Assembly (NCBI RefSeq): GCF_009498275.1
Contig: NZ_CP045643.1
Coordinates: forward strand, 62,001-126,000
DNA length: 64,000 nt
Direction: 5' to 3'
From: Streptomyces fagopyri
GTDB lineage: Bacteria > Actinomycetota > Actinomycetes > Streptomycetales > Streptomycetaceae
The position numbers and the translations under genes are program-made. Each line of letters opens with the position of its first letter. The first letter of the stretch is position 1. Shown here piece after piece: positions 32,764 to 49,411 of this stretch. The notes beneath the pieces were generated by a model. That model did not search any database. It worked only from the letters and a program-made list of their open reading frames with translations, and was not told where the DNA came from.

Positions 32764-32779
32764 ACCCATCACCCCAAAA

Positions 32780-32795: not shown

Positions 32796-32809
32796 TCCCC
32801 TCAAGGTCG

Positions 32810-32825
32810 CCTATCAGCGATAGAT
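32810..32825. promoter_or_regulatory. tetO-like operator 2 (regulator-proximal)
   Basis: CCTATCAGCGATAGAT, with the core CTATCAGCGATAG forming a palindrome around the central base (32817). It lies ten bases before the GTG of the repressor gene. A minus-strand TTGACA (32826-32831) abuts it and could be the -35 of the monooxygenase promoter, so repressor binding here would block both directions. Confidence 0.8.
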
Positions 32826-32832
32826 TGTCAAT

Positions 32833-33402
32833 GTGACCAAGATGAACCGTGAGGCCGTCGTCGCCGAGGCGCTCGGCCTGCTCGACGAGGTCGGACTCGA
32901 CGCCGTCAGCACCAGACGGCTGGCAAAGCGACTGAACGTGGAACAGCCATCGCTCTACTGGTACTTCCGCACCAAAAAGGACCTCCTCGCCGCTATGGCA
33001 CAGGCCGCGATGACACCGCACGCGACCGCACCCCTGCCCGCGCCCGAGGACGACTGGCGCGAGTGGTTCCTGGACAACACCCGCAGCTTCAGACGCACCC
33101 TGCTGATGTGCCGGGACGGCGCCCGGCTCCACGCCGGCACCACCCCCACCAGCGACCTCGACCGGATCCGGCACAAGATCCACTTTCTCGTCGCCTCCGG
33201 CGTCCCCGAACGGGACGCGCAAATGGCCATGCTCGCTGCCGGCCGCTTCACAGTCGGCAGCGTGCTGGAAGAGCAAGCGGAAACCAACCCCAGCGGCCGC
33301 ATCGATCTCCCGGCCGACATGCCCGGGATCGATCACACATCGGCGTTCGAGGCAGGTCTCGCCCTCATCCTGAACGGGCTAGTGCACCGCACCGAGGTAT
33401 AG
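32833..33402 (+). CDS. tetR: TetR-class tetracycline-type repressor
   Basis: A 189-residue repressor with strong resemblance to the classical tetracycline repressors, not just the wider family. The HTH reads STRRLAKRLNVEQPSLYWYF followed by RTKKDLL. The ligand domain keeps FLDNTRSFRRTLLMCRDGAR, then LHAGTTPT, and LAAGRFTVGSVLEEQ, matching the TetR positions that hold tetracycline and Mg (Asn82, Phe86, His100, Thr103 equivalents; a His is also present near the His64 position, TPHAT). It should bind the two tetO-like sites just upstream, repress itself and the divergent monooxygenase, and be released by a tetracycline-like ligand. GTG start at 32833 with almost no leader room, perhaps a leaderless mRNA. 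Confidence 0.88.
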   Translation: MTKMNREAVVAEALGLLDEVGLDAVSTRRLAKRLNVEQPSLYWYFRTKKDLLAAMAQAAMTPHATAPLPAPEDDWREWFLDNTRSFRRTLLMCRDGARLHAGTTPTSDLDRIRHKIHFLVASGVPERDAQMAMLAAGRFTVGSVLEEQAETNPSGRIDLPADMPGIDHTSAFEAGLALILNGLVHRTEV

Positions 33403-34445: not shown

Positions 34446-34649
34446 TCAACGGGCACCCACTGCTTGCGCGAGGGTGGCAAGGTCGACCGCGGGCACGGTC
34501 AGGACGGGGAAGCCCGAGCCCGGTGCGGTACGCCCGGACGGTCCGCGCGCACCGTCCAGCTCCACCGTCAGATCTCCCCGCCCGTACCGGTCGGCGTCCG
34601 AGGACCCTCGACACGCAGGACGTGGTGAGTCAGGGGGCGATCCCCACAC
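34446..34649 (-). CDS. Small hypothetical ORF overlapping the end of the secreted hydrolase gene
   Basis: A 67-codon frame whose GTG lies inside the last codons of the hydrolase gene, so it could be translationally coupled. The second half (YGRGDLTVELDGARGPSGRT, then VPAVDLATLAQAVGAR) has protein-like composition and good GC3, resembling the end of a beta-rich domain. The first 15 residues are proline-rich. It may be a genuine small protein or the relic of a larger one. No family recognised. Confidence 0.35.
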   Translation of the reverse strand: MWGSPPDSPRPACRGSSDADRYGRGDLTVELDGARGPSGRTAPGSGFPVLTVPAVDLATLAQAVGAR

Positions 34650-36084
34650 CGTCGATGCGACTCCACGCGCGTTCCTGAGCTGCGGTCATGACAGGCCAGT
34701 GCCGTCCGCCGGGCCGCGGGCGTACCTGGGTTGCATACGGAGCGGGGCGGTACGTCGGATCGTAGAAGCATCCCGTGCCGTATGTGTTGTCGAAGTCTCC
34801 GCAGGAGCGTGCGATCGAGCTGGGCGTCGGCTTACGGCCTGAGCGCACCCATGTGTCCAGCGCGGACAGCGAGTTGGCGTATTCGGAGTCACTCAGCTCA
34901 CTGTGCGTGTTCTCCGTGGTGAAGGTCTGTACGAGGTGTCCGTCCTGACCCGAGCTGCGCAGGACGGCTCGGTAGGCCGCCTCGTGTTCTACGTAGACCT
35001 GCGGGTCGTCGATCGCGTGGAGGGTGAGAACGGGGAGGGTGACGCGGCCTGTCAGATCACTGTCGTAGGAGTAGTCACGCTGTGCGCTGGGGTCGGCGGA
35101 GAAGCGGGCCACCCCTGCGTTGAGTGCCTTGTCGTCGTGGGAGCCGTCGTAGCGGACGCCGCGGTTGCTGAACGGGTTGCGGCCGTCGAGCCGTTTGGTC
35201 ACGATGTCCTGGAAGAGGAACGTTGCGTACTGCAGATTCGTTGCGAGCGAGGCTTCCGGGATACGGGTGGCAGCCACTATGTCGTCGAGGTTGCGCTGCT
35301 GAGCGGTGGTGCGGGCGGCTGGTTCGGTTTCGATGCCGGTGCACTCCTGCAGGCGCTCCTGGACGTCGGCGGGGGTCAGGGCGGAGTCGGCGGGCAGCCC
35401 CTGCCACAGCGGGTACTGCGCTTCGGTGGGACGGGGAAGGTTCTTGCAGTAGTACTGGTAGAGCGCCCGCAGGTCGACCCGGTGGTCGTAGCCGCGCGAT
35501 CCGCCGGCCAGGAGGCCGTTGGTCAGCAGTACCCCGTCGTAGGCTCCGTGTTTCCTGCCGTAGGTCTCGGCGACCTTGGCGGCGACGTTGCCGCCGTAGG
35601 ACTGACCGTGCAGATAGGTCCGGTCGGGGCGGCCGAAGCGGTCGGTGAACAGGCGGCGTACGTTCTCGGTGTCGGCGGCGGCCATCCTGACGCCGTAACC
35701 GCCTCGGCGGTATGAGGACCCGGCCCAGGCGTATCCCTCGTCCACCATCACCTCCCAGCGCTCCAAGTCCTCGGTGGGACTCGACGAGTCGTAGGAGAAG
35801 TCGGGGCCGCCGTGGGCGTGAACGACCAGGGAACCGTTCCAGTGCGTGGGGACGGCCATCGTGTAGTAGGCGCCGGCCGGATCCCGGCCGGCGTAGCAAG
35901 TGGCTTTCGCCGCGAGCCCAGGCGGGCAGGCGATAGGCCCGGGCTGCGGCCAACCCGCAGACTGAGCGGTCGGATTGGCGAGCGTTCCGAGGATCGTTGT
36001 GGCCAGAACCGCTGTCAGAGCGGCGGTCCGCCGGCGGGGCGCGAGTCGTCGGAGGCTGCGTATTGCCGCATCGGCTCGGGGCAA
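34630..36084 (-). CDS. Secreted alpha/beta hydrolase (esterase/peptidase-like)
   Basis: About 484 residues from the TTG at 36084 (AGGAG eight bases upstream; another TTG at 36108 is in frame). The signal peptide is RRRTAALTAVLATTILGTLA with cleavage near AQSA-GW. The catalytic fold shows the oxyanion strand LVVHAHGGPDFSY, the nucleophile elbow YLHGQSYGGNVAA (GxSxG), an Asp in TLHAIDDPQVY, and a His in TTENTHSEL. Several Cys pairs (IACPPG...ATCYAG; SCGDFDN...GCFYD) suggest disulfides. It probably cleaves an ester or peptide outside the cell. A GntR-type operator palindrome (36110-36121) lies 26 bases upstream of the start, placing the gene in the regulon of the adjacent GntR and linking it to the uptake operon at 38504. 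Confidence 0.85.
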   Translation of the reverse strand: MPRADAAIRSLRRLAPRRRTAALTAVLATTILGTLANPTAQSAGWPQPGPIACPPGLAAKATCYAGRDPAGAYYTMAVPTHWNGSLVVHAHGGPDFSYDSSSPTEDLERWEVMVDEGYAWAGSSYRRGGYGVRMAAADTENVRRLFTDRFGRPDRTYLHGQSYGGNVAAKVAETYGRKHGAYDGVLLTNGLLAGGSRGYDHRVDLRALYQYYCKNLPRPTEAQYPLWQGLPADSALTPADVQERLQECTGIETEPAARTTAQQRNLDDIVAATRIPEASLATNLQYATFLFQDIVTKRLDGRNPFSNRGVRYDGSHDDKALNAGVARFSADPSAQRDYSYDSDLTGRVTLPVLTLHAIDDPQVYVEHEAAYRAVLRSSGQDGHLVQTFTTENTHSELSDSEYANSLSALDTWVRSGRKPTPSSIARSCGDFDNTYGTGCFYDPTYRPAPYATQVRPRPGGRHWPVMTAAQERAWSRIDGVGIAP

Positions 36085-36109
36085 GGTGTACGCTCCTGAC
36101 TTTTGCAAT

Positions 36110-36121
36110 ATGCTATAGCAT
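36110..36121. promoter_or_regulatory. GntR operator copy 1
   Basis: Perfect 12-bp palindrome ATGCTATAGCAT between the secreted hydrolase gene and the end of gntR. It shares the core TGCTRTAGCA with three other sites (36890, 38230, 38479). Confidence 0.75.
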
Positions 36122-36155
36122 GCATGTCGAGTGGATTTCCCGAATCGCCGGCCCG

Positions 36156-36875
36156 TCAGTTCGAGAAGCGCGTCGCGATCCGGGAGGTGTTGGAGGTGTG
36201 ACTGTGAGCCCGCATCAGTTCCTCGGCCAGCTCACCATTGCCGGCCGCGACAGCTTCAAAAATGACACGGTGCTGCCTGTATCTCTCGTCGACGACCTTC
36301 GCGCGCTCGCTGCGCACCTCGGACAGGACGCCGGCTCGCCGCTCCTCCGTCCCGAACGCGTCGACGGTGCGCAGCATCTGGACAAGAGTCGCGTTGCCGC
36401 TGGCCTGGTCCACGAGCTGATGGAAATGCCGCATGAGTTCCTGGATCTCGAGCACAAGGTCCCGCTCGGCGTCGCTCCCCGCGTCCGTCTCATGCAGCCG
36501 GCCCCGTAGTGCGTCGGCCCCGTCCAGGCAGTCAGACATCTCCCGGCGTTGGGCTGCCGTCGACTTCTCGGCGGCCAGACGGGCCGCGAGCGCTCGCAGC
36601 ACATCCTCCATCATGGTGAACTCGCGAAGCTCGTCCATCCCGAACTGCGCGATACGGACCGATCGAGGCCCGGTGCGCTCCACCAGACGGTCCTGCTCCA
36701 AGCGCCGCAGTGCCTCGCGGACGGGTGTCGCACTGATGCTGAGAGACTCGGCCAGGCCCCGCTCTGTCACTTTCTCCCCGCGCTTGAGAGCTCCGGTCAC
36801 AATAGCCTCGCGAATGGCGGCGTACGCCTGATCGCCGAGGGTGACCGGTGACGGGAGCTGGGGGAGCAAGGCCAT
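36156..36875 (-). CDS. GntR-family regulator (FadR/FCD subfamily)
   Basis: A 239-residue regulator. The winged-helix domain has QAYAAIREAIVTGALKRGEK, then the recognition region LAESLSISATPVREALRRLE and the wing LVERTGPRSVRIA. The C-terminal FCD helical bundle includes MMEDVLRALAARLAAE and the metal-binding His pattern MRHFHQLV ... YRQHRVIFEAV ... MRAHSHTSN. FCD regulators usually bind small organic acids. Its own promoter (minus strand, TTGACA at 36904-36909, TAACAT at 36882-36887) contains an operator copy, so autoregulation is expected. It most likely controls the flanking hydrolases and the ABC/AtuA operon that carry the same palindrome. Confidence 0.9.
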   Translation of the reverse strand: MALLPQLPSPVTLGDQAYAAIREAIVTGALKRGEKVTERGLAESLSISATPVREALRRLEQDRLVERTGPRSVRIAQFGMDELREFTMMEDVLRALAARLAAEKSTAAQRREMSDCLDGADALRGRLHETDAGSDAERDLVLEIQELMRHFHQLVDQASGNATLVQMLRTVDAFGTEERRAGVLSEVRSERAKVVDERYRQHRVIFEAVAAGNGELAEELMRAHSHTSNTSRIATRFSN

Positions 36876-36881
36876 GGTGGC

Positions 36882-36909
36882 ATGTTATTTGCTACAGCAT
36901 GATTGTCAA
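36882..36909 (-). promoter_or_regulatory. gntR promoter with operator copy 2 in the spacer
   Basis: On the minus strand: -35 TTGACA (36904-36909), 16-base spacer containing TGCTGTAGCA (36890-36899), -10 TAACAT (36882-36887). Binding would block RNA polymerase directly. The same arrangement occurs in the opposite orientation at 38220-38247. Confidence 0.75.
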
Positions 36910-37209
36910 CTCGGACCGGCCGGGGAAGTGCCTGGCTTCAGGTGAACCGCCGCACCGGACGGGCGAATAGCCCAGATCCCTGCCTGAGCTCTCGAGTCCA
37001 CCGGGGGTGGGATCTCAAGGCTCTCGATGGGGCATGCCTCGCGCCAGAGATCGGGCACCCCTTCGCGAGGGCCGAAATCCCGATGGGGGAAGGAACCGGG
37101 CTGGCCGAGTCCTCTGGCGGCCCGCCGTGAATCCGACGTCCCTCAGACAATCAAGACTCCCAGGCTCCCCTGCGTGCAACCTCGATGCGCAGCGCGGCAA
37201 GAGCGCGCC

Positions 37210-38214
37210 GTGTCTGAAGCTGGAGGGCCCCGGGTGCGGGGCCGTCTTGAGCAGTACCTCGACATCGTGGGTTCTCAGAGGCTGAGCGACATCGAGGACA
37301 TCTCGCAACGGCGCCGGAACCAGGCTGAGTTGGCCGCGCCCCGACCGGGGCGCACCGCACCACCGGACATCGAAGTCATTGCCTACTCGGCCTGGCCCGG
37401 GACGGACCCCAAGGTGCGGGTACGGGTGTATCGACCCGCGGGCAGCGGCGCGCCGTCCCCGTGCCTCTATTACATCCACGGCGACGGATTGGTACCGGGC
37501 AGCGCCGGGAGCGACGATGCGAAAGCGTCCTGGCTCGCCCAGGCGGTCGGCTGTGTCGTCGTCTCGGCTGAGTACCGGCTCGCCCCCGAGAACCCGTACC
37601 CCGCCGCTGTCGACGACCGTTTCGCCGGTCTTCGGTGGCTGGCGGGCAGCCCCCATGAGCTGGGCATCGATCCTGACCGCATCGCCCTTCACGGGTCCAG
37701 CGCGGGCGGTTGCCTGGCAGCGGCCACCGCGCTCCTCGCCCGCGACCGCGGTGGTCCCGCAATCGCCCACCTGATGCTCATCTCACCCATGCTGGACGAC
37801 CGTTGCCCGACGGCGTCGCACGGGACCAACACCGGATTCAGGGCATGGAGCCGCGGGGCGAACATACAGGCCTGGCAGGCCTACCTGGGCAAGGTCTTCG
37901 GGACGGACAGGGTGCCGGCTTACGCGGCTCCGGCACGCGCCGACGACCTCGCGGGACTCCCGCCGACCTACGTGGACGTCGGTGACCTCGACCTGTTCCG
38001 CGACGAGGCCGTGGACTTCGCACATCGGATGATGCGCGCCGGTGTCCCGGTGGAACTGCACGTCCATCCCGGCGGTATTCACGGCGGGGAAACCCTCGCG
38101 CCCGAGGCCGATCTTAGTGCGAGAGTGCGTTCGTACCGGCTCGGCGCCCTGCGACGGGCGCTGTTCGCGCAGCCCTCCGGCCGGCCCTCCCCGTCGGCGC
38201 AGTGGTCCGGTTGA
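37210..38214 (+). CDS. Alpha/beta hydrolase, hormone-sensitive-lipase family esterase
   Basis: A 334-residue cytoplasmic esterase from the GTG at 37210; the open frame upstream is not protein-like. It has the HSL-family oxyanion motif in variant form (YYIHGDGLVPGSAG instead of HGGG), the conserved VVSAEYRLAPENPYPAAVDD, the nucleophile elbow HGSSAGGCLAAATALLARDR (GxSxG), an Asp in DVGDLDLFRDEAVDFA, and the His in HPGGIHGGE. It hydrolyses short acyl or aryl esters. It is divergent from gntR, whose operator-bearing promoter region it shares. Directly downstream (38220) is an operator-controlled promoter for the transport operon, so the enzyme may act on the imported compound. Confidence 0.85.
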   Translation: MSEAGGPRVRGRLEQYLDIVGSQRLSDIEDISQRRRNQAELAAPRPGRTAPPDIEVIAYSAWPGTDPKVRVRVYRPAGSGAPSPCLYYIHGDGLVPGSAGSDDAKASWLAQAVGCVVVSAEYRLAPENPYPAAVDDRFAGLRWLAGSPHELGIDPDRIALHGSSAGGCLAAATALLARDRGGPAIAHLMLISPMLDDRCPTASHGTNTGFRAWSRGANIQAWQAYLGKVFGTDRVPAYAAPARADDLAGLPPTYVDVGDLDLFRDEAVDFAHRMMRAGVPVELHVHPGGIHGGETLAPEADLSARVRSYRLGALRRALFAQPSGRPSPSAQWSG

Positions 38215-38219
38215 GCTGG

Positions 38220-38247
38220 TTGACAATCCTGCTGTAGCAAATACCAT
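38220..38247 (+). promoter_or_regulatory. Promoter of the transport operon with operator copy 3
   Basis: TTGACA (38220-38225), 16-base spacer with TGCTGTAGCA (38230-38239), TACCAT (38242-38247). This is almost a copy of the gntR promoter at 36882-36909, pointing toward the binding-protein gene. The TTGACAATC and TGCTGTAGCAAATA blocks are identical in both. Confidence 0.8.
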
Positions 38248-38478
38248 CCTCGCTATGGAGCGGTCGGGACGCACGCTCGTTCGCCTACGGCGCGAGGCAC
38301 CTCGCACGAGCCACACTCTCGCCTCACTCCACAGCGGGCACAGACACAGTTCCAGGCCGACACCGCCACCGATCCCATAGGCCTACGACACCACCCGAGG
38401 CAGGACCCAGCTGCCGCCTGGCATGCCCCGCCGCCCTCACCACTCCCCGAGAAGCGCTGCGTCACTCCACAATATTCA

Positions 38479-38488
38479 TGCTATAGCA
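38479..38488. promoter_or_regulatory. GntR operator copy 4, next to the ribosome site of the binding-protein gene
   Basis: TGCTATAGCA followed by AAATAG, six bases before GGAGG of the substrate-binding-protein gene (ATG 38504). Together with copy 3 at 38230 it brackets the leader, suggesting a roadblock or looping arrangement. Confidence 0.75.
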
Positions 38489-38503
38489 AATAGCGGAGGA
38501 TCA

Positions 38504-39625
38504 ATGGTGATCACACTCCCCCGGGCTTGCGCCTTGGCGGCCGCTTGCACGGTCGTTCTGACCGCATGCGGAGGCTCCACGGACACAAACGGCTCGGCGA
38601 AGCCGACGTCCGCGGTCGACGTGGGCAAGGCGGCACCCGCCACGCCCCTCGACCCGAAGACGATCGCCAGGGCCAAAGATCAGGGGTCCCTCCTCCTCTA
38701 CACCAACGCGGACGCCGACCAGATGGCGCCGCTCACCAAGGCCTTTGAAGCGAAGTACGCCGGCATCAAGGTGCGCGTGCTGAACATGAACGACACGCAG
38801 ACCTTCCAGCGCTACGCCACAGAGACCGCAACAGGCGTGCGCACCGCGGACGTCGTCATGGCCACCGACGCCGTCGACATGCTGAACTTCGTCGACAAGG
38901 GCAGCGTCGTCGACTACGACGACCCCAACCTCGCGCACCTGCCGAGTTACGCGAAACTCGCCCCCGGCGTGTTCGCCATGTCCGAGGACCCCCTCGTCGC
39001 TGTGTACAACACCGCACTCATCTCCAAGGACGAACAGCCCAAGGACCTCAAATCCCTGGCCGAGCTGTCGAAATCCATCAAGGGCAAAGTCGGCACCACA
39101 GACATCAGCAATCCCCAGTCCTTCGGCGCGGTCAGCAACTACACCGCCAAGCACGGCGAAGCGGGATGGAAGAACATCGAAGCCCTGGGACCGAACTCGG
39201 GTGTCGAGTCGGGCAACGGCAATCTGATACAGAAACTGGCCCAGGGCCAGTACCGGGCCACATACTTCGTCGCCGGCTCGGTCCGGGCCCTGATCGAGGG
39301 CGAGAAGGCAGCGAAAATCCTCAACTACACCTATCTGACCGATGGCACACCGCTGCTTCCCAGAGCCGTCGCCGTCACCAAGAAGGCAAAGTCACCCGAC
39401 GCCGGCAAGCTCTTCGTGAACTTCCTTCTCTCGGTCGAGGGACAGCAGGCCGCGTGCAAGGGCGGCTTCACGCCGTACCGCGACGGTGTGAAGTGCCCTT
39501 ATGGACTGCCGGCGATCGAGGCGGTCGTCGGCAAGGACAACATGATGCTCGGCGGCTACCCGAAGGACATCGTCAAGAACAAACCGTCGATCGTGGAACG
39601 CTGGAAAAAGGCCTACGGCCGATGA
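38504..39625 (+). CDS. ABC transporter substrate-binding lipoprotein (iron/organic-anion type)
   Basis: A 373-residue lipoprotein starting at the ATG after GGAGG. The signal ends with the lipobox LTACGG, then a Thr/Ser/Pro linker. The mature part is an AfuA/FbpA-like type II binding protein: LLLYTNADADQMAPLTKAFE, RTADVVMATDAVDMLNFVDK, PLVAVYNTALISKDEQPKDL, YFVAGSVRALIEGEKAAKIL, PLLPRAVAVTKKAKSPDAGK. Proteins of this class bind ferric iron, thiamine, polyamines or small organic anions. The catabolic genes downstream argue for an organic acid here. It overlaps the permease gene by four bases (ATGA) and is the first gene of an operon running to at least 44199. Confidence 0.9.
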   Translation: MVITLPRACALAAACTVVLTACGGSTDTNGSAKPTSAVDVGKAAPATPLDPKTIARAKDQGSLLLYTNADADQMAPLTKAFEAKYAGIKVRVLNMNDTQTFQRYATETATGVRTADVVMATDAVDMLNFVDKGSVVDYDDPNLAHLPSYAKLAPGVFAMSEDPLVAVYNTALISKDEQPKDLKSLAELSKSIKGKVGTTDISNPQSFGAVSNYTAKHGEAGWKNIEALGPNSGVESGNGNLIQKLAQGQYRATYFVAGSVRALIEGEKAAKILNYTYLTDGTPLLPRAVAVTKKAKSPDAGKLFVNFLLSVEGQQAACKGGFTPYRDGVKCPYGLPAIEAVVGKDNMMLGGYPKDIVKNKPSIVERWKKAYGR

Positions 39626-41361
39626 GCGTCACCCGGCTGCAGCCCGCACTGCCACGCACTCCCCCGCCGCAGCAACGTCGACGGCGACGGCCCACGACCA
39701 ACGCGAGCCACTACATCCTGTGGGCACTCTCGCTCATCGTCATCGTCGGGTCGGTCGTCCCTGTCGCAGCCGCCTCACTGTGGTCGACCCCGCTGTACGA
39801 AACAGGCGGACACCTCACCTGGGACAATTTCCGGACACTGCTCACAGACCGCGGCTGGTGGACCGCGGTCAGCAACTCGATCCTGTTCGCCGCACTCAAC
39901 ACCATCGGCTCGATCGTGGTCGGCGTGGCCTGCGCGGTGTTCCTGACCCGCACCGACATCCCCGGCCGCCGTGTCCTGACGACGTTGCTGCTCGTCCCGA
40001 TCGCCCTGCCCGGACTCGTCCTCATCATCGGCTGGGCCGCAATGTGGACCCCGGCAGGATTCGCCTCCTCATGGCTGCAGACCAACACCCCCCTGAACAT
40101 GCCGGTCAACCTCTACAGCATTCCCGGTATGGCCATGGTTGCAATGAGCGTGGCATCCCCCACCGTCTTCCTGCTGTGCCGCGGCACCCTGCTGTCGATC
40201 GACCCGTCCCTGGAGGACGCCGCCCGCACCGCCGGCGCGAGCCCCCTGCGCAGCCTGCTCACCGTCAGCCTGCCGCTGATGCGCCCCGCCATCACCAACG
40301 CCGCGCTGCTGGTCTTCGCCCTCTCCATTGAGGTCCTCGGCCTGCCACTCATCCTCGGATTCTCAAGCAAGATCAGCCTGATCTCCACATACCTCTACGA
40401 CCACTGGGTGAACGACTCACAGCAGGGCCTGGTCTCCGCCGGCGCGGTGTTCCTCCTCGTCGCCGTCTCCGGACTCCTCGTCCTGCGCAACCGACTGGTG
40501 GGCGACACCGCCAGGTTCACCACCACCACGGGAAAGCCCACCAGTGTCCGCACCCTCAGGCTCGGCGCCTGGCGCTGGGCCGCCACGGCAGCGATCACGC
40601 TCTTCCTGCTGGTCTTCGTGGCCGTACCGCTGGCCGGAGTCGTCATGACGGCCTTCACCTCCATCCTGTCGCCCTTCATCTCGCCGTGGAGCGTGCTGAC
40701 CCTCGACAACTTCTCCGCCGTCCTCGACAACTCCCTCTACACCAACTCGATCACCAACAGCCTGCTCATCGCCGGCATCGGCGGCGCAGTGACAACCATC
40801 GTCATCGCGGTCCTCTCGGTCGTCGCCCACCGCTCGGCCTTCCGCTTCCGCGGATCCCTCCAACAAGGCATGCTGTGGCCGCGCATGATGCCGGCGCTCG
40901 TCACCGGCATGGCGTTCTTCTGGAGCTTCGCCCTCCTCGACAGATCCGGTGCCCTACGCACCAGCCTGTGGGGCATCGGCATCGCCTTCGCCGTACGAAG
41001 CCTCGCACTCGGCTACAGCGCCTTCTACCCGGCGCTCGCCGGCATCGGCGCCGACCTTGACAACGCCGCCCGCACCTCCGGCGCCACCTGGTGGAAAACG
41101 ATGCGCACCATCGTCTTCCGCCTCGTCACACCCGCCATGGGCGCCTCGTTCGTACTGCTCTTCGTCGCCATGCTCAACGACGCCGAACCGGCGGTGTTCC
41201 TCGTCACCGACAAGACCCCCGTGCTCGGCCTCACCATGCTGCAGCTCGCAGCGACAAGCATCGGCGGGACCGTCGCCGCGTTGGGAGTCATCCAGATGGT
41301 CATCACCTCACTCGTCCTCGGCGCGGGCCGCGCCCTGCTGGGGGTGCGTCCACGTGCCTGA
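39622..41361 (+). CDS. ABC transporter permease, fused double-domain (FbpB type)
   Basis: A 579-residue inner-membrane protein with two permease modules of about six helices each. The two EAA-type cytoplasmic loops are visible as DPSLEDAARTAGASPLRSLL and GADLDNAARTSGATWWKTMR, each followed by further helices. This fused arrangement is typical of FbpB-type transporters that work with AfuA/FbpA-like binding proteins. The N-terminus is a short basic, proline-rich cytoplasmic tail. The start overlaps the binding-protein stop, and its own stop overlaps the ATPase start by eight bases. Confidence 0.92.
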   Translation: MSVTRLQPALPRTPPPQQRRRRRPTTNASHYILWALSLIVIVGSVVPVAAASLWSTPLYETGGHLTWDNFRTLLTDRGWWTAVSNSILFAALNTIGSIVVGVACAVFLTRTDIPGRRVLTTLLLVPIALPGLVLIIGWAAMWTPAGFASSWLQTNTPLNMPVNLYSIPGMAMVAMSVASPTVFLLCRGTLLSIDPSLEDAARTAGASPLRSLLTVSLPLMRPAITNAALLVFALSIEVLGLPLILGFSSKISLISTYLYDHWVNDSQQGLVSAGAVFLLVAVSGLLVLRNRLVGDTARFTTTTGKPTSVRTLRLGAWRWAATAAITLFLLVFVAVPLAGVVMTAFTSILSPFISPWSVLTLDNFSAVLDNSLYTNSITNSLLIAGIGGAVTTIVIAVLSVVAHRSAFRFRGSLQQGMLWPRMMPALVTGMAFFWSFALLDRSGALRTSLWGIGIAFAVRSLALGYSAFYPALAGIGADLDNAARTSGATWWKTMRTIVFRLVTPAMGASFVLLFVAMLNDAEPAVFLVTDKTPVLGLTMLQLAATSIGGTVAALGVIQMVITSLVLGAGRALLGVRPRA

Positions 41362-42466
41362 CCTGCACCTGAACAAGATCACCAAGCAGTTCACCCAGCA
41401 CACCGCTCTGCACGACGTGTCACTGACCGTCGAGGACGGCGAGATCTTTACCCTGCTCGGCCCCAGCGGCTGCGGAAAATCCACCACCTTGTGGTCGATC
41501 GCCGGCCTGCACCGGCCCGACTCGGGAAGCATCGCTATCGGCGACCGCACCGTCTTCGACCACGGACGCGTCAACGTCGAACCCGAACACCGCAATTGCG
41601 GCGTCGTGTTCCAGTCGTACGCGATCTGGCCGCACCTGTCGGTCGCACAGAACGTTGGCTATCCGCTCAAGCTCCGCAAGACACCCAAGGCGGAACGCGA
41701 CCGGCGCGTACAGGAAGTCCTCGAACTCGTCGAACTGAGCCACCACGCCCGCCGATACCCACACGAACTGTCCGGCGGTCAGCAGCAACGGGTCGCACTG
41801 GCACGCGCCCTGGCCCACCCGCCCGACATACTGCTCCTGGACGAACCCTTCTCGAACCTGGACGCCAAACTCCGCGACCGGTCAAGGCAGTGGCTCAAGA
41901 CACTGCAGTCACAGGTCGGAGTCACCACGGTCTTCGTGACGCACGACCAGGACGAAGCCCTGTCCGTCAGCGACCGTGTCGCCGTCATGGACCGCGGCAG
42001 GATACGGCAGGTCGGCACACCCGCCGAGATCTACGAACACCCGGCCGACCTGTTCGTCGCCGACTTCGTGGGCACCGCCAACATCATGCCCGCCGAGGTC
42101 CTGCGGGCCGACGGAACCCACGCCCTCGTGAGCATCGAGGGCCTCGGCAAGCCGCTGATCGTGCCGCACACCGACAGACGCCCTGGCCCAGTGCGCATCA
42201 GCATCCGGCCCGAGAACCTAACCATCCACCGCGACGGCCACACGACTCCGCCGCCCGGTGCCATCACCACCAAGATCGACAACCAGGCCTACCTCGGTGA
42301 CCACTACCGCTACACCCTCCGCATCGGCCCCACCCCCGTGGTCGTGACCACCACACAGCCGGCCGCCGCGAGCGAGCTCACCATCAGCCTCCCCCCGGAA
42401 GACATCCGCATCTTCCACGACGAAGCCAACTCCAACCAGGAGACCCACCATGCCTCCGTCCACTGA
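41354..42466 (+). CDS. ABC transporter ATP-binding protein (FbpC/PotA type)
   Basis: A 370-residue ATPase from the GTG at 41354. It has Walker A LLGPSGCGKSTTLW, the Q-loop VVFQSYAIWPHLSV, the signature LSGGQQQRVALARALAH, Walker B DILLLDEPFSNLD and the H-switch VFVTHDQDEAL. The C-terminal ~120 residues are a TOBE-type beta domain (RISIRPENLTIHRDG), as in FbpC and PotA. It powers uptake through the fused permease; two copies should bind the two EAA loops. It overlaps the next gene by 17 bases. Confidence 0.94.
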   Translation: MPDLHLNKITKQFTQHTALHDVSLTVEDGEIFTLLGPSGCGKSTTLWSIAGLHRPDSGSIAIGDRTVFDHGRVNVEPEHRNCGVVFQSYAIWPHLSVAQNVGYPLKLRKTPKAERDRRVQEVLELVELSHHARRYPHELSGGQQQRVALARALAHPPDILLLDEPFSNLDAKLRDRSRQWLKTLQSQVGVTTVFVTHDQDEALSVSDRVAVMDRGRIRQVGTPAEIYEHPADLFVADFVGTANIMPAEVLRADGTHALVSIEGLGKPLIVPHTDRRPGPVRISIRPENLTIHRDGHTTPPPGAITTKIDNQAYLGDHYRYTLRIGPTPVVVTTTQPAAASELTISLPPEDIRIFHDEANSNQETHHASVH

Positions 42467-43841
42467 AGCCGCCGCACGGGTCGGAATCCTCACCCCGTCC
42501 GGCATGCTCGGCGCCGGCTTCGCCCCGGAGACCATCGACTACGGCCTCGCCCTCGGGCCCGACGTCATCGCAATCGACGGCGGATCCACCGACTCCGGAC
42601 CCCACTACCTCGGCGCCGGTGTCGCCAAGACCACCGCCTCCGCCGTGAGCCGCGACCTGCGACTCCTCCTCAGAGCAGCAGCCACCGCCGACATCCCCCT
42701 GATCGTCGGCTCCTGCGGCACCAGCGGCACCGACTCCGGCGTCGACTGGGTCGCCGGGATCGCAGACCAGATCATGGCCGAGGAAGGCCTCGACCTGAAG
42801 ATCGCCCGCATCTACAGCGAACAGGACGCCGGCTTCCTCAAGAAAGAACTTGACGCGGGACGGGTGCATCCCCTGGCACCGCACGGACCTCTCGCCCCGG
42901 AAACCCTCGACAGCTGCACCCACATCGTGGGCATGATGGGCCACGAGCCCTTCGTCGAAGCCATCCAGGCCGGCGCGCAGGTCATACTGGCGGGGCGGGC
43001 CACCGACACCGCTCTCGCCGCCGCAGTACCCCTGATGCTCGGCATGCCGGCCGGACCCACCTGGCACGCCGCCAAGATCGTCGAATGCGGCGGACAGTGC
43101 ACCACGGACCCACGCGCCGGCGGTGTCTTCGCCACCATCGACCACAACGGCTTCGTCATCGAGCCCCTCGACCCGGCCAACGCCTGCACCCCCATCTCGG
43201 TAGCGGCACACATGCTGTACGAGACGGCCAACCCCTACCGCATGCGCGAACCCGCGGGCACCCTCGACGTCTCCGACGCCACCTACGCCCCACTCGATGA
43301 ACGCCGCGTACGCGTCGAAGGATCCCGCTTCGAGCCCGCGGAGCAACACACCATCAAACTCGAGGGCGCCCGCGTCACCGGCTACGAAACACTCTCCTTC
43401 AGCGGCATCCGCGACCCATACATCGTCGCCAACATCGACCGCTGGGCCGCTCTGCTGCGCAACATCGTCACCGAGCGCATCAACCAGACCCTCAAACTGA
43501 CCGACGACGACTACGGCCTGGACATCCGCCTCTACGGCCACAACGCCATCCTGCAGGACATCGACCCCGACCCCTCCACCGCGCGCGAGGTCGGCGTCAT
43601 GCTCCTGGTCAACGCACCGTCCCAGGCCACCGCCACGGCGATCGCCAAGGTCGCCAACCCCCTGATGCTGCACCTCCCGCTGCCCGAAATGCACTACCTG
43701 CCGAGCTTCGCGTTCGCCACCTCCCCCGCGGAGACCGAACGCGGCCCGGCCTACGAATTCGTACTCAACCACGTCGTCGACGTCGAATCGGCCACCGGCA
43801 TGTTCCGTACCCACTACTCCCGCGAGGTCTCCCGTGCCTGA
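42450..43841 (+). CDS. AtuA-family protein (DUF1446)
   Basis: A 463-residue cytoplasmic protein (ATG at 42450, AGGAG upstream, inside the ATPase gene). It shows the DUF1446/AtuA pattern: the opening VGILTPSGMLGAGFAPETID, then DVIAIDGGSTDSGPHYLGAG, LIVGSCGTSGTDSGVDW, ILAGRATDTALAAAVPLMLG, and HAAKIVECGGQCTTDPRAGG. AtuA itself belongs to acyclic terpene (citronellol/geraniol) degradation, but most family members have no known reaction. The pairing with DUF4387 and an organic-anion-type transporter is a known genomic association in hydroxy- and amino-acid degradation loci. It is probably the central catabolic enzyme or enzyme subunit of this operon. Confidence 0.88.
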   Translation: MPPSTEAAARVGILTPSGMLGAGFAPETIDYGLALGPDVIAIDGGSTDSGPHYLGAGVAKTTASAVSRDLRLLLRAAATADIPLIVGSCGTSGTDSGVDWVAGIADQIMAEEGLDLKIARIYSEQDAGFLKKELDAGRVHPLAPHGPLAPETLDSCTHIVGMMGHEPFVEAIQAGAQVILAGRATDTALAAAVPLMLGMPAGPTWHAAKIVECGGQCTTDPRAGGVFATIDHNGFVIEPLDPANACTPISVAAHMLYETANPYRMREPAGTLDVSDATYAPLDERRVRVEGSRFEPAEQHTIKLEGARVTGYETLSFSGIRDPYIVANIDRWAALLRNIVTERINQTLKLTDDDYGLDIRLYGHNAILQDIDPDPSTAREVGVMLLVNAPSQATATAIAKVANPLMLHLPLPEMHYLPSFAFATSPAETERGPAYEFVLNHVVDVESATGMFRTHYSREVSRA

Positions 43842-44199
43842 GCACCCCACCCCTGCGCCCCAGCTCAGCGACTACGCGATCGAGATCCGGTCCAAGAACG
43901 CGGGCCCCTTCTGGGTCACCATGGAAACGTTCATGAAGGACAGCGCCGGATACGCCATCGCAGCCGACGACTCGTTCCTCAACGAGCAGGTGATCGCCGA
44001 TCTCTACCGAGTGGACGCAACGCAGGTGCAGATATTCCGCATCCCCGCGCTCAACGCCGTAAAGATCTCCTTCCCTCGGCCCGTCACACAGGCCAGCCTC
44101 CGCGACCGCGACATACACGCCGGACAGCACCACGTACCACTGGCCTGCCTGCGAGTCCCCCACCACCCACTCACCGACGAAGCGCAGCCGGTGTCATAG
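43834..44199 (+). CDS. DUF4387 family protein, partner of the AtuA-like protein
   Basis: A 121-residue protein starting at GTG 43834, overlapping the AtuA-family stop by eight bases. It matches the DUF4387 pattern: an opening IEIRSKNAGPFWVTMETFMK, the middle IADLYRVDATQVQIFRIPAL, then AVKISFPRPV and a final HAGQHHVPLACL. DUF1446 and DUF4387 occur side by side so often that they are likely two parts of one enzyme. No catalytic residues can be assigned from sequence alone. Confidence 0.87.
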   Translation: MPEHPTPAPQLSDYAIEIRSKNAGPFWVTMETFMKDSAGYAIAADDSFLNEQVIADLYRVDATQVQIFRIPALNAVKISFPRPVTQASLRDRDIHAGQHHVPLACLRVPHHPLTDEAQPVS

Positions 44200-44295
44200 A
44201 CCTGAGTCCCTGACACCCTCATCTCCGGAATGGGTCGACACACCCCGGCCCGGAGGCCAAGCCCCGTCAACCCGGCCAGAGCTGCCGGCGATTCC

Positions 44296-44442
44296 ATGTC
44301 GCCTTCGTCGACCGGGCGCATCCGCCACCGAGCGCTCGATGCGATGGCGGCACCGATCGCGGAGGAAGCGGCCGCGACACGAGAAGACCTGGGCAGTGAA
44401 CCCCTGGTGCCGGAGGTGGACATCAGGGACACCACGACGTGA
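44296..44442 (+). CDS. Possible small ORF before the aldolase gene
   Basis: A 48-codon frame (MSPSSTGRIRHRALDAMAAP, ending VPEVDIRDTTT) in the 250-base gap between the DUF4387 and aldolase genes. It has GC-rich third positions and an acidic C-terminus, and ends 11 bases before the aldolase start. No convincing ribosome site; it may be a leader peptide or noise. Confidence 0.25.
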   Translation: MSPSSTGRIRHRALDAMAAPIAEEAAATREDLGSEPLVPEVDIRDTTT

Positions 44443-44453
44443 AGGAGAAGGCA

Positions 44454-45290
44454 GTGACACAAGAAGTGGCCCCGATCGAGAATCCCACCACCGATCCTCT
44501 GAGCCGAGAGGATCTGGTGCCCATCCCGGAAGAGGAACTGATCTTCCGGCTCCCTGTCCCGTTCACCGACCCTGCCATCGAGCGACGGCACCGAAAGGAG
44601 CGGCTCGCGGCCGCGCTGCGTCTGTTCGGCCGCTTCGGGTTCGAAGAAGGCGTCGCCGGACACATCACCGCCCGCGATCCTGAGTTCCCTGACCACTTCT
44701 GGGTGAACCCGTTCGGAATGTCCTTCAAGCACGTCAAGGTCAGCGACCTTCTGCTCGTCAACCACAACGGGCATGTCGTCCAAGGACGTCACCGGGTCAA
44801 CCGGGCTGCTTTCGCCATCCACTCGGCTGTGCACGCGGCACGCCCTGACGCCGTCGGCGCAGCCCACAGCCATTCGGTGTACGGGAAGGCCCTGTCGGCG
44901 ACAGGCCAACGGCTCGAACCCCTCACCCAGGACGCCTGCGCGTTCTACGAGGATCACGGCTGCTATGAGAACTACTCGGGCGTGGCGAATGATCCAGAGG
45001 AAGGCCGGCGGATCGCTGAGGCGCTCGGCGGCCACAAGGCGGTCATCCTGCGCAACCACGGGCTGCTCACAGCGGCTGGGTCTGTCGACGCCGCGGCCTA
45101 CTGGTTCATCACGATGGAACGATCCGCGCAGGCCCAGTTGGCCGCCAAGGCGGCGGGGCCGACCATCCAGATCCCGCACGAGGAGGCAAAGGTCACCTAC
45201 GCGCAAGTGGGCTTCGACCTGGCGGGCTGGTTCCAGTTTCAGCCTCTCTTCGACCAGATCTCCCGCACTGACCCCGACCTCTTCGACTAG
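44454..45290 (+). CDS. Class II aldolase/adducin family protein
   Basis: A 278-residue member of the L-fuculose-phosphate aldolase/L-ribulose-5-phosphate epimerase family. The GTG at 44454 has AAGGAG six bases upstream. The core shows FGFEEGVAGHITARDPEFPD, the phosphate-loop-like WVNPFGMSFKHVKVSDLLLV, the zinc ligands in AAHSHSVYGKALSA, and the third zinc His in LRNHGLLTAAGSVDAA. It probably catalyses retro-aldol cleavage or decarboxylation of a hydroxy-acid. Many soluble members act on non-phosphorylated acids, for example 4-hydroxy- or tartronate-type compounds. Its position after the AtuA/DUF4387 pair supports a role in the same catabolism. Confidence 0.88.
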   Translation: MTQEVAPIENPTTDPLSREDLVPIPEEELIFRLPVPFTDPAIERRHRKERLAAALRLFGRFGFEEGVAGHITARDPEFPDHFWVNPFGMSFKHVKVSDLLLVNHNGHVVQGRHRVNRAAFAIHSAVHAARPDAVGAAHSHSVYGKALSATGQRLEPLTQDACAFYEDHGCYENYSGVANDPEEGRRIAEALGGHKAVILRNHGLLTAAGSVDAAAYWFITMERSAQAQLAAKAAGPTIQIPHEEAKVTYAQVGFDLAGWFQFQPLFDQISRTDPDLFD

Positions 45291-45358
45291 CCGCGCGGAG
45301 TCGGTGATGTGCCCTTGGAATTCCGAGGCCCATCACCGCCTCCGCCCGTGACTAGCAG

Positions 45359-46327
45359 TCAGTGCTCCGTCGGCACGCCGTTGACGGCGAAGCGGGCCCG
45401 CCCCTCAAGTGCCGCGACCAGTTCTTCAGCGCCCGCGAAGCCTGCCGCCCGCCGGGCCTGCGCGGTCTGGCCTGCGAGATGGGAGTAGACGGTGATTCCG
45501 TCGACGCCCCTCAGCGGGCTGTCCGGCGGAAGCGGTTCTTGAGCCACCACGTCGAGTTCCGCACCCCGAATGACACCGGTGTGGACCGCGTTCGCGAGCG
45601 CCCGTTCGTCAACAAGGGCACCTCGCGCGGTGTTGACCAGCACCGCGGTCGATTTCATCCGCGCGAAGGCGGACGCGTCGAACAACCCACGCGTCCGGTC
45701 GGTGAGGGCCGTATGGATCGACACATAGTCGGACGCAGCCAGCAACTCGACGAAGGGAACGAACCGTACCGAACCGTCGGCAGCGTCGCGTCGTTCACCG
45801 GCAACGCCGGTGGTACACAGCACGTCCATCCCGAACGCCTGGGCAAGGGGGACCACAGCACGAGCGGCCGCACCGTGGCCGACCAGGCCGAGCGTCGCCC
45901 CGCGCAGTTCGTAACCGTCCTCACGCGGCCATCCGCCCGCACGCACCCCCATGGCACTGTGTCCGAGGCGCCGCGCCCCGGACAGGAGCAGGCCGAGCGT
46001 GTATTCGGCAACGGCGTTTGCGTTGATTCCAGGCAGGTTGCTCACGCTGATCCCGAGCCGGCTCGCAGCCTCGACGTCCACCGAGTCGTAGCCGACTCCT
46101 GTACGCACCACCACGCGCAACTGCGGTGCACGCGCGAGCAGCTCGGCACTCAAAGGCTCATTCGCGATGAGCGCCGCGTCGACCCCGGCAAGCGCGGACA
46201 CAAGTTCTTCAGGATCGCGGCGCCCGACCATGGGCAAGTGACGCGTCTCCAAACCGGCCGCACTCAGGTAGTTGTCCACCTCGTCGCCGGGGCGCAGATA
46301 GTCAGTGGTGATCAGGACGCGTGGCAC
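45359..46327 (-). CDS. D-2-hydroxyacid dehydrogenase (NAD-dependent)
   Basis: A 322-residue oxidoreductase from the GTG at 46327 (GGAGGAAGAG upstream, inside the previous gene's end). The NAD-binding core contains LGLVGHGAAARAVVPLAQAF, where the third Gly of GxGxxG is Ala. The catalytic triad is present: Arg in VLVNTARGALVDERAL, Glu in ELDVVAQEPLPPDSPL, and His in YSHLAG. It interconverts a D-2-hydroxy acid and its 2-keto acid. It is the second gene of an operon with the tartrate-dehydrogenase-like gene (26-base overlap), converging on the aldolase gene. Confidence 0.9.
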   Translation of the reverse strand: MPRVLITTDYLRPGDEVDNYLSAAGLETRHLPMVGRRDPEELVSALAGVDAALIANEPLSAELLARAPQLRVVVRTGVGYDSVDVEAASRLGISVSNLPGINANAVAEYTLGLLLSGARRLGHSAMGVRAGGWPREDGYELRGATLGLVGHGAAARAVVPLAQAFGMDVLCTTGVAGERRDAADGSVRFVPFVELLAASDYVSIHTALTDRTRGLFDASAFARMKSTAVLVNTARGALVDERALANAVHTGVIRGAELDVVAQEPLPPDSPLRGVDGITVYSHLAGQTAQARRAAGFAGAEELVAALEGRARFAVNGVPTEH

Positions 46328-47426
46328 GCTCTTCCTCCTCCGCCGCAACACCGTGCCCGATCCGCCCTGCGATTGCCGCTCCCAGAGCCGCCGTCGTCCC
46401 CGTCCCGCCCAGGTCCGGCGTCAGCACCTCCGGCTGCCGCTCCAGGACCGACTCGATGGCGGCGACAGTGCCCGCCGCGGCCACCGCCTCGCCCAGGTGC
46501 TCCAGCATCATTGCCCCGCTCCAGATCTGTCCGACCGGGTTGGCGATGCCCCGCCCCGCAATGTCGGGAGCGGATCCGTGCACGGGCTCGAAAAGGCTCG
46601 GGTAGTCCCGTTCCGGATTGATGTTCGCACTCGGTGCTATCCCGATCGTGCCCGTGCAAGCCGGCCCCAGATCGGACAGGATGTCGCCGAACAAATTGCT
46701 CGCCACCACTACGTCGTACCGGTCAGGCTGCAGGACGAACTTGGCCGCCAGGATGTCGATATGGTCCTTGTCGGCACGCACCCCGGGGTACCGCAACGCC
46801 ATCTCGCCAGCCCGCTCGTCCCAGTAGGGCATGGAGATCGAGATGCCGTTGCTCTTCGTGGCCCAGGTCAGGTGTCTACTTGGTCGTGACGCGGCGAGCT
46901 CGAAGGCGTACCGCAGCACCCGGTCGACACCAGTGCGGGTCATCACCGTCTCTTGCAGTACCGTCTCTCGCTCGGTGCCCTCGAAAATGCGGCCGCCGAT
47001 ACTGGAATACTCGCCCTCGGTGTTCTCGCGCACCACCCAGAAGTCGATGTCTCCCGGACCGTAGTCGCACAGCGGAGCGCGCACGCCCCGCAACAGTCGG
47101 ACCGGCCGCAGATTGACGTACTGGTCAAAGCCACGACGCATCTGCAGGAGGCTTCCCCACAGAGACACGTGGTCGGGCACAACCTCGGGCCACCCGACCG
47201 CACCGAAGAAGATGGCGTCGAAACCGCCCAACACGCCGCGCCAGTCCTTCGGCATCATCTCGCCATGGCGCACCCAGTAGTCGGCGCTGGCGAAGTCGAA
47301 CTCCACCACGTCAAGGACGAAGCCATACGCCTCAGCCGCGGCACGCAGACACCGAAGCCCTTCGGGAACAACTTCCCGGCCTATTCCGTCTCCTGGAACC
47401 GCCGCAATGCGATAGCGCTGTGGCAC
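46302..47426 (-). CDS. Tartrate dehydrogenase/decarboxylase-like enzyme (TtuC type)
   Basis: A 374-residue member of the isocitrate/isopropylmalate dehydrogenase superfamily, close to the tartrate/D-malate dehydrogenase branch. The start is the GTG at 47426 (GGAG eight bases upstream). It shows IAAVPGDGIGREVVPEGL, FGAVGWPEVVPDHVSLWGSL, the substrate Arg region RRGFDQYVNLRPVRLLRGV, FWVVRENTEGEYSSIGGR, and DVVVASNLFGDILSDLGP followed by FEPVHGSAPDIAGRG. It oxidises tartrate, D-malate or a similar 2-hydroxy diacid with NAD+ and divalent metal. Divergent to a LysR gene, it is probably induced by the acid brought in by the transporter. Confidence 0.9.
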   Translation of the reverse strand: MPQRYRIAAVPGDGIGREVVPEGLRCLRAAAEAYGFVLDVVEFDFASADYWVRHGEMMPKDWRGVLGGFDAIFFGAVGWPEVVPDHVSLWGSLLQMRRGFDQYVNLRPVRLLRGVRAPLCDYGPGDIDFWVVRENTEGEYSSIGGRIFEGTERETVLQETVMTRTGVDRVLRYAFELAASRPSRHLTWATKSNGISISMPYWDERAGEMALRYPGVRADKDHIDILAAKFVLQPDRYDVVVASNLFGDILSDLGPACTGTIGIAPSANINPERDYPSLFEPVHGSAPDIAGRGIANPVGQIWSGAMMLEHLGEAVAAAGTVAAIESVLERQPEVLTPDLGGTGTTAALGAAIAGRIGHGVAAEEEERATRPDHH

Positions 47427-47582
47427 AACTATTACTCCTTGCTCGGCCTCTCGTACGGCACCCCACTCACTCTGGGCCGCGACGAGAGCGGCCACAACAG
47501 CTCTCACGGCAACCTATGCTTTCTCCTGCAGAAAGCCGTGACAGTCCACAGCAGCGCTCCCAGACGGACGGGCCTCGTGAAA

Positions 47583-48485
47583 ATGTCCATCGACGACCTG
47601 AGGTTCTTCCAGGTCGTCGCGGCCAGCGAGACGCTGACCGCAGCCTCGCGCCAGCTCGGCTGGTCGCTGCCCGCCGTCAGCAAACGACTGAGCACACTGG
47701 AGAGCCGCCTCCACGTCCGCCTCGTCCAGCGGAGCACGCGCCAACTCGTACTGACCTCGGAAGGCGCCCTCTATGCAGGCGGCCTCGACTCGATCCTCGA
47801 CCAGCTCCACGCGCTGGAAGACCAGGTCACTGACCACTCCGCGGCGCTGCGCGGCGCCTTGGTCGTCCAGGCAACCCCTGGCCTCGGGCGCGCACATGTG
47901 GCCCCGCTGCTGGCGGAGTTCGCTGCCTCTCATCCCCAACTGCATCTGCAGTTGCAGACCTCGGCCCTGCCACTCCGTCCCCACCGGACGAATTTCGACG
48001 TCGCCGTCCATGTGGGAAATCCGCCGGACTCTTCCCTCAGGATGCGCCGGCTCGCGCGGAACCGCCGAGTCCCCTGCGCGGCACCCTCCTACCTGGACCG
48101 GTGCGGCGCCCCGACCGACCTGGAGGATCTCGCGCAGCACGACTGCATCGTGCTACGCGAGAACGAGGGTGACTACGCGCTCTGGCGATTCGGCGATGCG
48201 GGCGACCCGCGGCACGTGCGGGTTCGCGGTCTGCTGTCCAGCAACGACGGCGACATCGTGACCGGCTGGGCACTGGAGGGCCACGGAGTCATCATGCGCT
48301 CCGAATGGCATGTCCGCCCTCTCATCGAACGCGGGGAGCTAGTCCGCGTACTCCCTCACATCACGACACCCGCGGCCGACATCTACGCCCTGTTCGAGGA
48401 CGACGGACATGTCCCTCGCCGCGTGGCCAAACTGATCGACCACCTCGCCGTCCGTCTGCCGGGACGGCTGGAAGGCTCGGCTTGA
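47583..48485 (+). CDS. LysR-family regulator
   Basis: A 300-residue regulator. The N-terminal HTH is DDLRFFQVVAASETLTAASR followed by WSLPAVSKRLSTLESRLHVR, and the periplasmic-binding-like effector domain starts near GALVVQATPGLGRAHVAP. Length and order are normal. It is divergent from the tartrate-dehydrogenase-like/hydroxyacid-dehydrogenase operon, with 156 bases between starts, and should activate it in response to its substrate. A GTG two codons upstream is an alternative start. Confidence 0.9.
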   Translation: MSIDDLRFFQVVAASETLTAASRQLGWSLPAVSKRLSTLESRLHVRLVQRSTRQLVLTSEGALYAGGLDSILDQLHALEDQVTDHSAALRGALVVQATPGLGRAHVAPLLAEFAASHPQLHLQLQTSALPLRPHRTNFDVAVHVGNPPDSSLRMRRLARNRRVPCAAPSYLDRCGAPTDLEDLAQHDCIVLRENEGDYALWRFGDAGDPRHVRVRGLLSSNDGDIVTGWALEGHGVIMRSEWHVRPLIERGELVRVLPHITTPAADIYALFEDDGHVPRRVAKLIDHLAVRLPGRLEGSA

Positions 48486-48805
48486 CGCAAGCTGTTGTCG
48501 AGTGGGAGTAGCGAGCTTGGCCGAGGCAGAGAGAACGATCGTCACCGAGAATCCGGCGGACAACCAGGGCTGTCCCTGGCGGGAGCTCAGTCGGACCCCC
48601 TCACGGCGTCGCCGAGGGGACTGCAGTGCACGTACCCAAACTCAACGCGAAGGTCCTCGATGCGATCGCGAGGAATCGGCGACGGCGCTCATGACGGTTC
48701 GCCAGCAATATGATCGGCAACCCAGATGCTGAGGCGGCTGATGCGGGCTTCCGTCCCGCCGACGCACATACAGCAACCACCCACTCGATGACACCAGGAT
48801 ATTCG

Positions 48806-49411
48806 ATGTCCAACCGTCCGAAACTTCCCCCCGTTCGTCCGGCAACGCCTGCCGACATCCCCCAGGCCGTAGAAACGCTGACCCAAGCCTTTGCTCACTA
48901 CACCTGGACACAACACACAGTCAGCGCAACGAACTTCCTGGATCGACTGCGAGCAACGAACGACCTGTTCGTGAGACGCATCGGCCTGGAGCAGGGCCGT
49001 GTCTGGGTCACTGACGACGCGTCGGCCGTCGCGGTATGGACCACACCGCACGCCCCAGAGCGAACCCGAGCCCTCTTCACGGAACTTGCACCGCTATTCG
49101 CCGACCTGGCCGGCGACCGCGCACCCCAAGCAGCTCGGGCCCGCCAGGCCATGGCACAACACAGACCCACACAGCCTGTCTGGTTCCTGGGGGTCGTCGG
49201 AGTACATCCTGATGCCCAACGCGGCGGCTTGGGCAGAGCCGTCCTCGCCCCCGGCATCACAGCCGCGGAGCAGGACGGGTACGCCGCTTTCGCCGAGACC
49301 TCGGCCGCCGGCAACGTGCCCTTTTACGAATCCCTCGGTTTTGCGACAAGGGCTACCGTCGACATCCCCGACAACGGACCCCGCTCCTGGTCCCTGCTGA
49401 AGAAGCCCTGA
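48806..49411 (+). CDS. GNAT acetyltransferase closely resembling puromycin N-acetyltransferase
   Basis: A 201-residue GNAT enzyme from the ATG at 48806. It follows Pac of Streptomyces alboniger along its whole length: VRPATPADIPQAVETLTQAF, the segment HTVSATNFLDRL, FVRRIGLEQGRVWVTDDASA, then VAVWTTP, HRPTQPVWFLGVVGVHPDAQ, RGGLGRAVLAPG (acetyl-CoA loop), and NVPFYESLGFATRA. Pac acetylates the tyrosinyl amino group of puromycin. Here no puromycin biosynthesis genes are visible, so it may give resistance to puromycin-like aminonucleosides or acetylate another amine. It appears monocistronic. Confidence 0.85.
   Translation: MSNRPKLPPVRPATPADIPQAVETLTQAFAHYTWTQHTVSATNFLDRLRATNDLFVRRIGLEQGRVWVTDDASAVAVWTTPHAPERTRALFTELAPLFADLAGDRAPQAARARQAMAQHRPTQPVWFLGVVGVHPDAQRGGLGRAVLAPGITAAEQDGYAAFAETSAAGNVPFYESLGFATRATVDIPDNGPRSWSLLKKP

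Follow-up and report, generated by a model that had tools for sequence, protein, structure and literature searches.

The solved relative of the AtuA-DUF4387 protein pair considered here was deposited as the citramalate lyase CmlAB (PDB 9ERQ and 9EVF), the latter entry under a title that names an ADP-pyruvate complex. Its large subunit, 9ERQ_A, shares 91.5% identity with a protein whose gene, in an E. coli record, lies between those for methylaspartate ammonia-lyase and a class I fumarase, a position that fits citramalate cleavage. A second precedent is ThnQS, AtuA-like proteins of anaerobic naphthalene degradation reported, in the excerpted text of PMC12016498, as a C-C lyase of a tertiary β-hydroxy acid thioester. 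The likeness to ThnQS, taken from the description in that excerpt, would be a C-C bond broken at a tertiary carbon bearing a hydroxyl; the ThnQS substrate differs in being the CoA thioester of a ring compound. Canonical AtuA, which serves acyclic terpene utilisation, has Pfam PF07287 in common with the protein described below, and the Pseudomonas tartrate dehydrogenase/decarboxylase (3FLK; TIGR02089) is the described relative of another enzyme of the locus.

The window, the whole stretch of 64,000 nucleotides that was analyzed, corresponds to bases 62001-126000 of the 8.88-Mb, one-contig genome of Streptomyces fagopyri, and the nearest named relatives in a scan for close relatives are Streptomyces; coordinates below count from its first base. 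Pfam and NCBIfam scans of the predicted products bear out the gene set that a first-pass annotation had placed in one locus. On the reverse strand lie a secreted-type α/β hydrolase of the tannase-like DUF6351 family (34630-36108; Pfam, 30.8 bits against a cut-off of 22.4), whose N-terminus looks signal-like by eye, and a GntR/FCD regulator (36156-36875; Pfam). The forward strand then encodes an HSL-family hydrolase (37210-38214; Abhydrolase_3, 190.7 bits), a putative solute-binding lipoprotein (38504-39625; SBP_bac_8, 88 bits), a fused ABC permease with two BPD_transp_1 stretches in Pfam (39622-41361), an ABC ATPase with a TOBE domain (41354-42466; Pfam), the AtuA/DUF1446 protein, a CmlA-like large subunit of a putative C-C lyase (42450-43841), the DUF4387 protein, its CmlB-like small subunit (43834-44199; Pfam, 99.6 bits; 47.5 bits to 9ERQ_B), and a class II aldolase-fold protein (44454-45290, with an alternative start at 44439). 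Downstream, as the earlier reading had it, come two reverse-strand genes, for a D-2-hydroxyacid dehydrogenase (45359-46351; Pfam) and a tartrate dehydrogenase-type β-decarboxylating dehydrogenase (46302-47507), and a forward LysR regulator nearest TtdR but under the TtdR cut-off (47583-48485, the start picked among 47538, 47577 and 47583). The HSL hydrolase, its start chosen from the N-termini of relatives, and the binding protein, which shows a lipobox-like LTAC by eye, probably begin at 37210 and 38504, later than their longest ORFs (from 37027 and 38423). From the binding protein to DUF4387, successive genes overlap by 4, 8, 17 and 8 bases (39622/39625, 41354/41361, 42450/42466 and 43834/43841), exactly the values first noted. 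The gap of 239 to 254 bases between the DUF4387 stop (44199) and the candidate starts of the aldolase-fold gene, together with the dehydrogenases on the opposite strand, argues against tight coupling of the whole locus. Farther upstream, at 22017-33336, the window carries an MMPL transporter, a two-component pair, an IlvD/Edd dehydratase, a sugar-type binding protein and an FAD_binding_3 monooxygenase.

As in CmlAB, an AtuA-family gene and a DUF4387 gene lie side by side at this locus, and their products match CmlAB in sequence and in predicted fold, the AtuA protein falling within the CmlA fold at 35% identity to CmlA. In a 41-row AtuA alignment that includes E. coli CmlA, 27 columns are invariant, and DUF4387 residues K21, G24 and K77 are the same in all 89 rows, CmlB included. 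Yet the window protein belongs to a separate clade: in an 88-row tree, a quick build with SH-aLRT support only and long-branch warnings, it lies within 51 actinobacterial rows (SH-aLRT 99) and within a 60-row clade (99) that also holds Proteobacteria, apart from an 8-row CmlA clade (99) that takes in 9ERQ_A and glutamate-pathway proteins of E. coli and Prevotella. Both this tree and a 68-row alignment leave out L034, L035, L036 and L063, removed by de-duplication, and L072, a fragment. At fifty-two positions, many of them beside invariant residues, the 36 window-clade rows compared are fixed for one residue and the 8 CmlA-clade rows for another; from CmlA to the window, Y16 to A22, H91 to G97, Y179 to T185 and F184 to A190 are changes to small residues, whereas L199 to W205 and I326 to W332 go the opposite way. 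Three genomes of the same order (G037, G044 and G199; two of the window's genus, one of its family) have CmlA orthologs, at 52-56% to CmlA and all in the CmlA clade, so the window AtuA is a different paralog. Judged by sequence and predicted fold, the pair is probably a C-C lyase of a hydroxy acid. The step had been called undescribed, with dehydration, isomerisation and lyase chemistry as options; the kind of reaction is in fact already known from the CmlAB deposit and the excerpted account of ThnQS (PMC12016498). Both are lyases, which favors the third option, and on this basis we reject dehydration and isomerisation.

The name of canonical terpene AtuA does not suit the window protein either: it scores 82-84 bits where the other copy in the genome reaches 495, and acyl-CoA carboxylase genes are absent among the products scanned at 34630-49411. 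That second, canonical AtuA lies far from the window, at 5215138-5216385 of the genome (about 5.2 Mb). Elsewhere, pairs of the CmlA clade keep company of their own. In a Klebsiella plasmid record (L104), a fumarase, two aldehyde dehydrogenases and two dehydrogenases of the alcohol/glucose type accompany AtuA-DUF4387 in such a context, a set that may lead from a branched C5 compound to citramalate; on a Neorhizobium plasmid (L111) the pair adjoins a P450, a 2Fe-2S protein, an agmatinase, an aminotransferase and a fumarase.

Among 293 genomes of the order, window-clade AtuA, counted at 69% or above and at full length, occurs in 17, a number that leaves out G015 (67%) and G078 (fragments). The D-2-hydroxyacid dehydrogenase (E ≤ 1e-80) is found in 16 of the 293, every one of them with window-clade AtuA (16 of 18 AtuA genomes once G015 is added), and the tartrate-type dehydrogenase (E ≤ 1e-140) also in 16, of which 15 have the AtuA and one, G059, is an exception. 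One genome with window-clade AtuA (G117) has neither dehydrogenase at the thresholds used, and another (G232) lacks the tartrate-type enzyme. Start to start, AtuA lies 1.0-3.5 kb from the D-2-hydroxyacid dehydrogenase in 15 of 16 genomes and 2.5-7.4 kb from the tartrate-type enzyme in 14 of 15; in G008 the dehydrogenases are 13-15 kb away. A set of 40 named loci from the scan for close relatives overlaps with the 293 genomes and is thus not an independent sample. With about seven of these loci cut by contig ends and the thresholds for gene presence set after the hits were seen, the counts are DUF4387 39, GntR 32 (at least 35%), hydroxyacid dehydrogenase 26, MFS carrier 24, tartrate-type dehydrogenase 16, ABC permease plus binding protein 14, LysR 13 (at least 65%), HSL hydrolase 9 (at least 60%), c11 hydrolase 9, aldolase-fold protein 8 (at least 60%), hydantoinase A/B-like 7, RraA-like 6, MmgE/PrpD 5 and DUF6351 hydrolase 3; 12 loci have at least one of the three hydrolases. 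When those thresholds are applied to 16 loci from other AtuA clades, GntR, in two of them, is the only gene of the window to pass. These data support the view that the genes form one conserved system, co-inherited more than chance would give, by Fisher values that ignore relatedness. The first-pass annotation had likewise read the locus as one coherent system, an idea that would fail if orthologous loci rarely kept these genes together; across the genomes they are kept together, and the reading stands. The locus is spread over Streptomyces, Nonomuraea, Amycolatopsis, Nocardioides, Kribbella and others.

Some loci depart from the common layout. Five genomes of the genus (G263, G197, G115, G161 and G141; L073-L080) have a second AtuA-DUF4387 pair, at 46-48%, with its own MFS carrier and GntR regulator. 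It lies 8-10 kb from the first pair in G263, G197 and G115 and at a greater distance in G161 and G141, and LysR and the tartrate-type dehydrogenase stand between the two pairs. Two pairs would fit two related substrates or stereoisomers. In Streptomyces sp. P3 (L045, 10001-11400), permease, ATPase, AtuA and DUF4387 match in several pieces; these genes may be broken, or the sequence faulty.

The ester hydrolases, which had been counted as part of the system, recur in those 12 of 40 loci, while linkage of the secreted one holds in some genomes only. Relatives of the DUF6351 hydrolase (72-78%) stand beside AtuA-DUF4387 in L046, L048, L053, L078 and L080, and it adjoins AtuA in 6 of the 17 window-clade AtuA genomes, the window's own included; relatives occur in 75 of the 293 genomes, mostly away from AtuA. 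Leaving the window's genome aside, its five nearest relatives (76-80%) share a contig with AtuA, at distances of 0.5-0.7 kb in four cases and 16 kb in the fifth. The tartrate-type dehydrogenase, at 543.1 bits against a TIGR02089 cut-off of 470.4 and 503 bits to 3FLK, would be a counterpart of the Pseudomonas enzyme, with a LysR neighbor nearest TtdR; it differs in being fixed, within its order, to AtuA-DUF4387 and the D-2-hydroxyacid dehydrogenase. The class II aldolase (FucA type) proposed earlier has its family score (PRK06208, 414.7 bits against a cut-off of 255), but its activity and its core role are both unsure: NovR (9RYG, 232.3 bits) is about as close as the solved relative 4XXF (236.8 bits), and the gene is in 8 of the 40 loci, where the RraA-like gene is in 6 and none has both, small numbers in either case. 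The protein is possibly an oxidative decarboxylase rather than an aldolase.

Other bacteria offer partial parallels. Sister-clade clusters of Variovorax and Cupriavidus, arranged HydB-HydA-dehydrogenase-AtuA-DUF4387, have AtuA, DUF4387 and a dehydrogenase as the window does, but with tripartite tricarboxylate binding proteins or an MFS transporter instead of the ABC importer and with no esterases named. Martelella combines GntR, a fused "iron" permease, ATPase, AtuA, DUF4387 and an α/β hydrolase, with a binding protein nearby, but its AtuA is at 45% identity and no dehydrogenases are annotated in 19 kb. As the annotations read, the theme common to the Variovorax, Cupriavidus, Martelella and Klebsiella neighborhoods is carboxylate catabolism.

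From what was obtained directly, namely the gene set, its co-inheritance and the likeness to CmlAB in a separate clade, we infer every reaction of the following pathway. We lean, at somewhat better than even confidence, toward a locus that imports and degrades a hydroxy di- or tricarboxylic acid with a tertiary hydroxyl, one that occurs naturally in ester form. Secreted and cytoplasmic esterases would free the acid, which the ABC importer would bring in, as the MFS carrier would in sister loci. AtuA-DUF4387 could then break R1R2C(OH)-CHR3-COO- at the bond adjoining the tertiary hydroxyl, into a keto acid and a short carboxylate; a nucleotide may take part, given the ADP-pyruvate title of 9EVF. 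The D-2-hydroxyacid and tartrate-type dehydrogenases would process the keto or hydroxy acid product, joined in some loci by the NovR/aldolase-like protein or, in its place, an RraA-like aldolase, and the GntR and LysR proteins would induce the two halves of the locus. The lyase pathway draws support from the CmlA/CmlB match, residue conservation, dehydrogenase co-inheritance, the exchange of ABC for MFS transporters, the recurrent hydrolases and the TIGR02089 score; it is weakened by the iron-named relatives of the binding protein, the patchy linkage of DUF6351 and the aldolase-fold gene, the exceptional genomes G117, G232 and G059, and dehydrogenases that run on the other strand and have a LysR of their own. 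Tentatively, at a little short of even confidence, we further posit that the window clade represents a novel subfamily of lyases that cleave a tertiary hydroxy acid other than citramalate, within an undescribed esterase-importer-lyase-dehydrogenase pathway.

The importer invites a different reading, in which the ABC genes encode an iron (or thiamine/phosphonate) transporter that merely adjoins the acid genes. The best solved relatives of the binding protein (7F6U/7F6E, 106 bits) are named iron-binding, which counts against organic-acid import, and there are weak PhnS/thiamine-type NCBIfam matches. Among the matches listed for binding protein, permease and ATPase, however, none reaches the NCBIfam equivalog cut-off of a named transporter, for iron or otherwise; the four-gene run of translational overlaps leads straight into AtuA; the order ABC-AtuA-DUF4387 recurs in Martelella; and, as the best evidence, MFS replaces ABC beside the same lyase (14 loci with ABC, 24 with MFS, none with both and 2 with neither). 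A separate iron importer is very improbable, and the organic-anion importer of the first-pass annotation probably holds, with the iron-named relatives against it.

As to the acid itself, the candidates we constructed are citramalate, a hydroxycitrate-like acid and a benzyl-malate/tartrate-like acid. Were the pair simply a citramalate lyase, turning citramalate or its esters into pyruvate and acetate, the clade split would reflect divergence only; the two-subunit make-up, the fold and the 27 invariant columns common to E. coli CmlA would all follow. We nevertheless hold this unlikely, given the separate clade at 35% identity, the 52 differently fixed positions and the CmlA orthologs that already sit in related genomes. 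Neighborhoods differ as well: in place of glutamate mutase, methylaspartate ammonia-lyase and FumD (class I fumarase), found in 0 of the 40 window-clade loci, the pair has esterases, an ABC or MFS transporter and two dehydrogenases that would be without a role in citramalate breakdown. Citramalate-forming neighbor genes do occur at L105 and L113, and a search of the window's genome, run without a positive control, gave no match to methylaspartate ammonia-lyase. Hydroxycitrate occurs in nature, and oxaloglycolate is convertible to tartrate or glycerate. The boldest form of the new-subfamily reading takes the acid to be hydroxycitrate-like: the lyase would yield acetate and oxaloglycolate, hence the tartrate-type dehydrogenase alongside, the two dehydrogenases would lead on to tartrate or glycerate, and the HSL and DUF6351 hydrolases would open lactones or esters. 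It accounts for the co-inheritance of tartrate-dehydrogenase-type and hydroxypyruvate/glyoxylate-reductase-type enzymes with the lyase, but leaves the NovR-like protein and HydA/B unexplained, and a literature search on hydroxycitrate with Streptomyces, tartrate dehydrogenase and citramalate returned nothing; we rate it quite unlikely. Eucomic, piscidic and fukiic acids are plant acids of the benzyl-malate/benzyl-tartrate type, present as esters, and from such substrates the lyase would release an arylpyruvate for the D-2-hydroxyacid dehydrogenase and the NovR-like protein. The tannase-like and feruloyl/PHA-esterase-like hydrolases, the nearness of NovR to the aldolase-fold protein and the four CmlA residues replaced by small ones speak for this chemistry; the two changes to tryptophan run the other way, and with the NovR-like gene in so few loci this is a most improbable choice.

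The reading we prefer, a lyase of a tertiary hydroxy acid, bears on many genomes, since AtuA-DUF4387 pairs are widely found and most take their name from terpene utilisation, a misleading label. Window-type pairs can instead be annotated as probable hydroxy-acid C-C lyases, which gives a catabolic cluster widespread in actinobacteria a testable reaction class, an ABC/MFS transporter hypothesis and a short list of acids.
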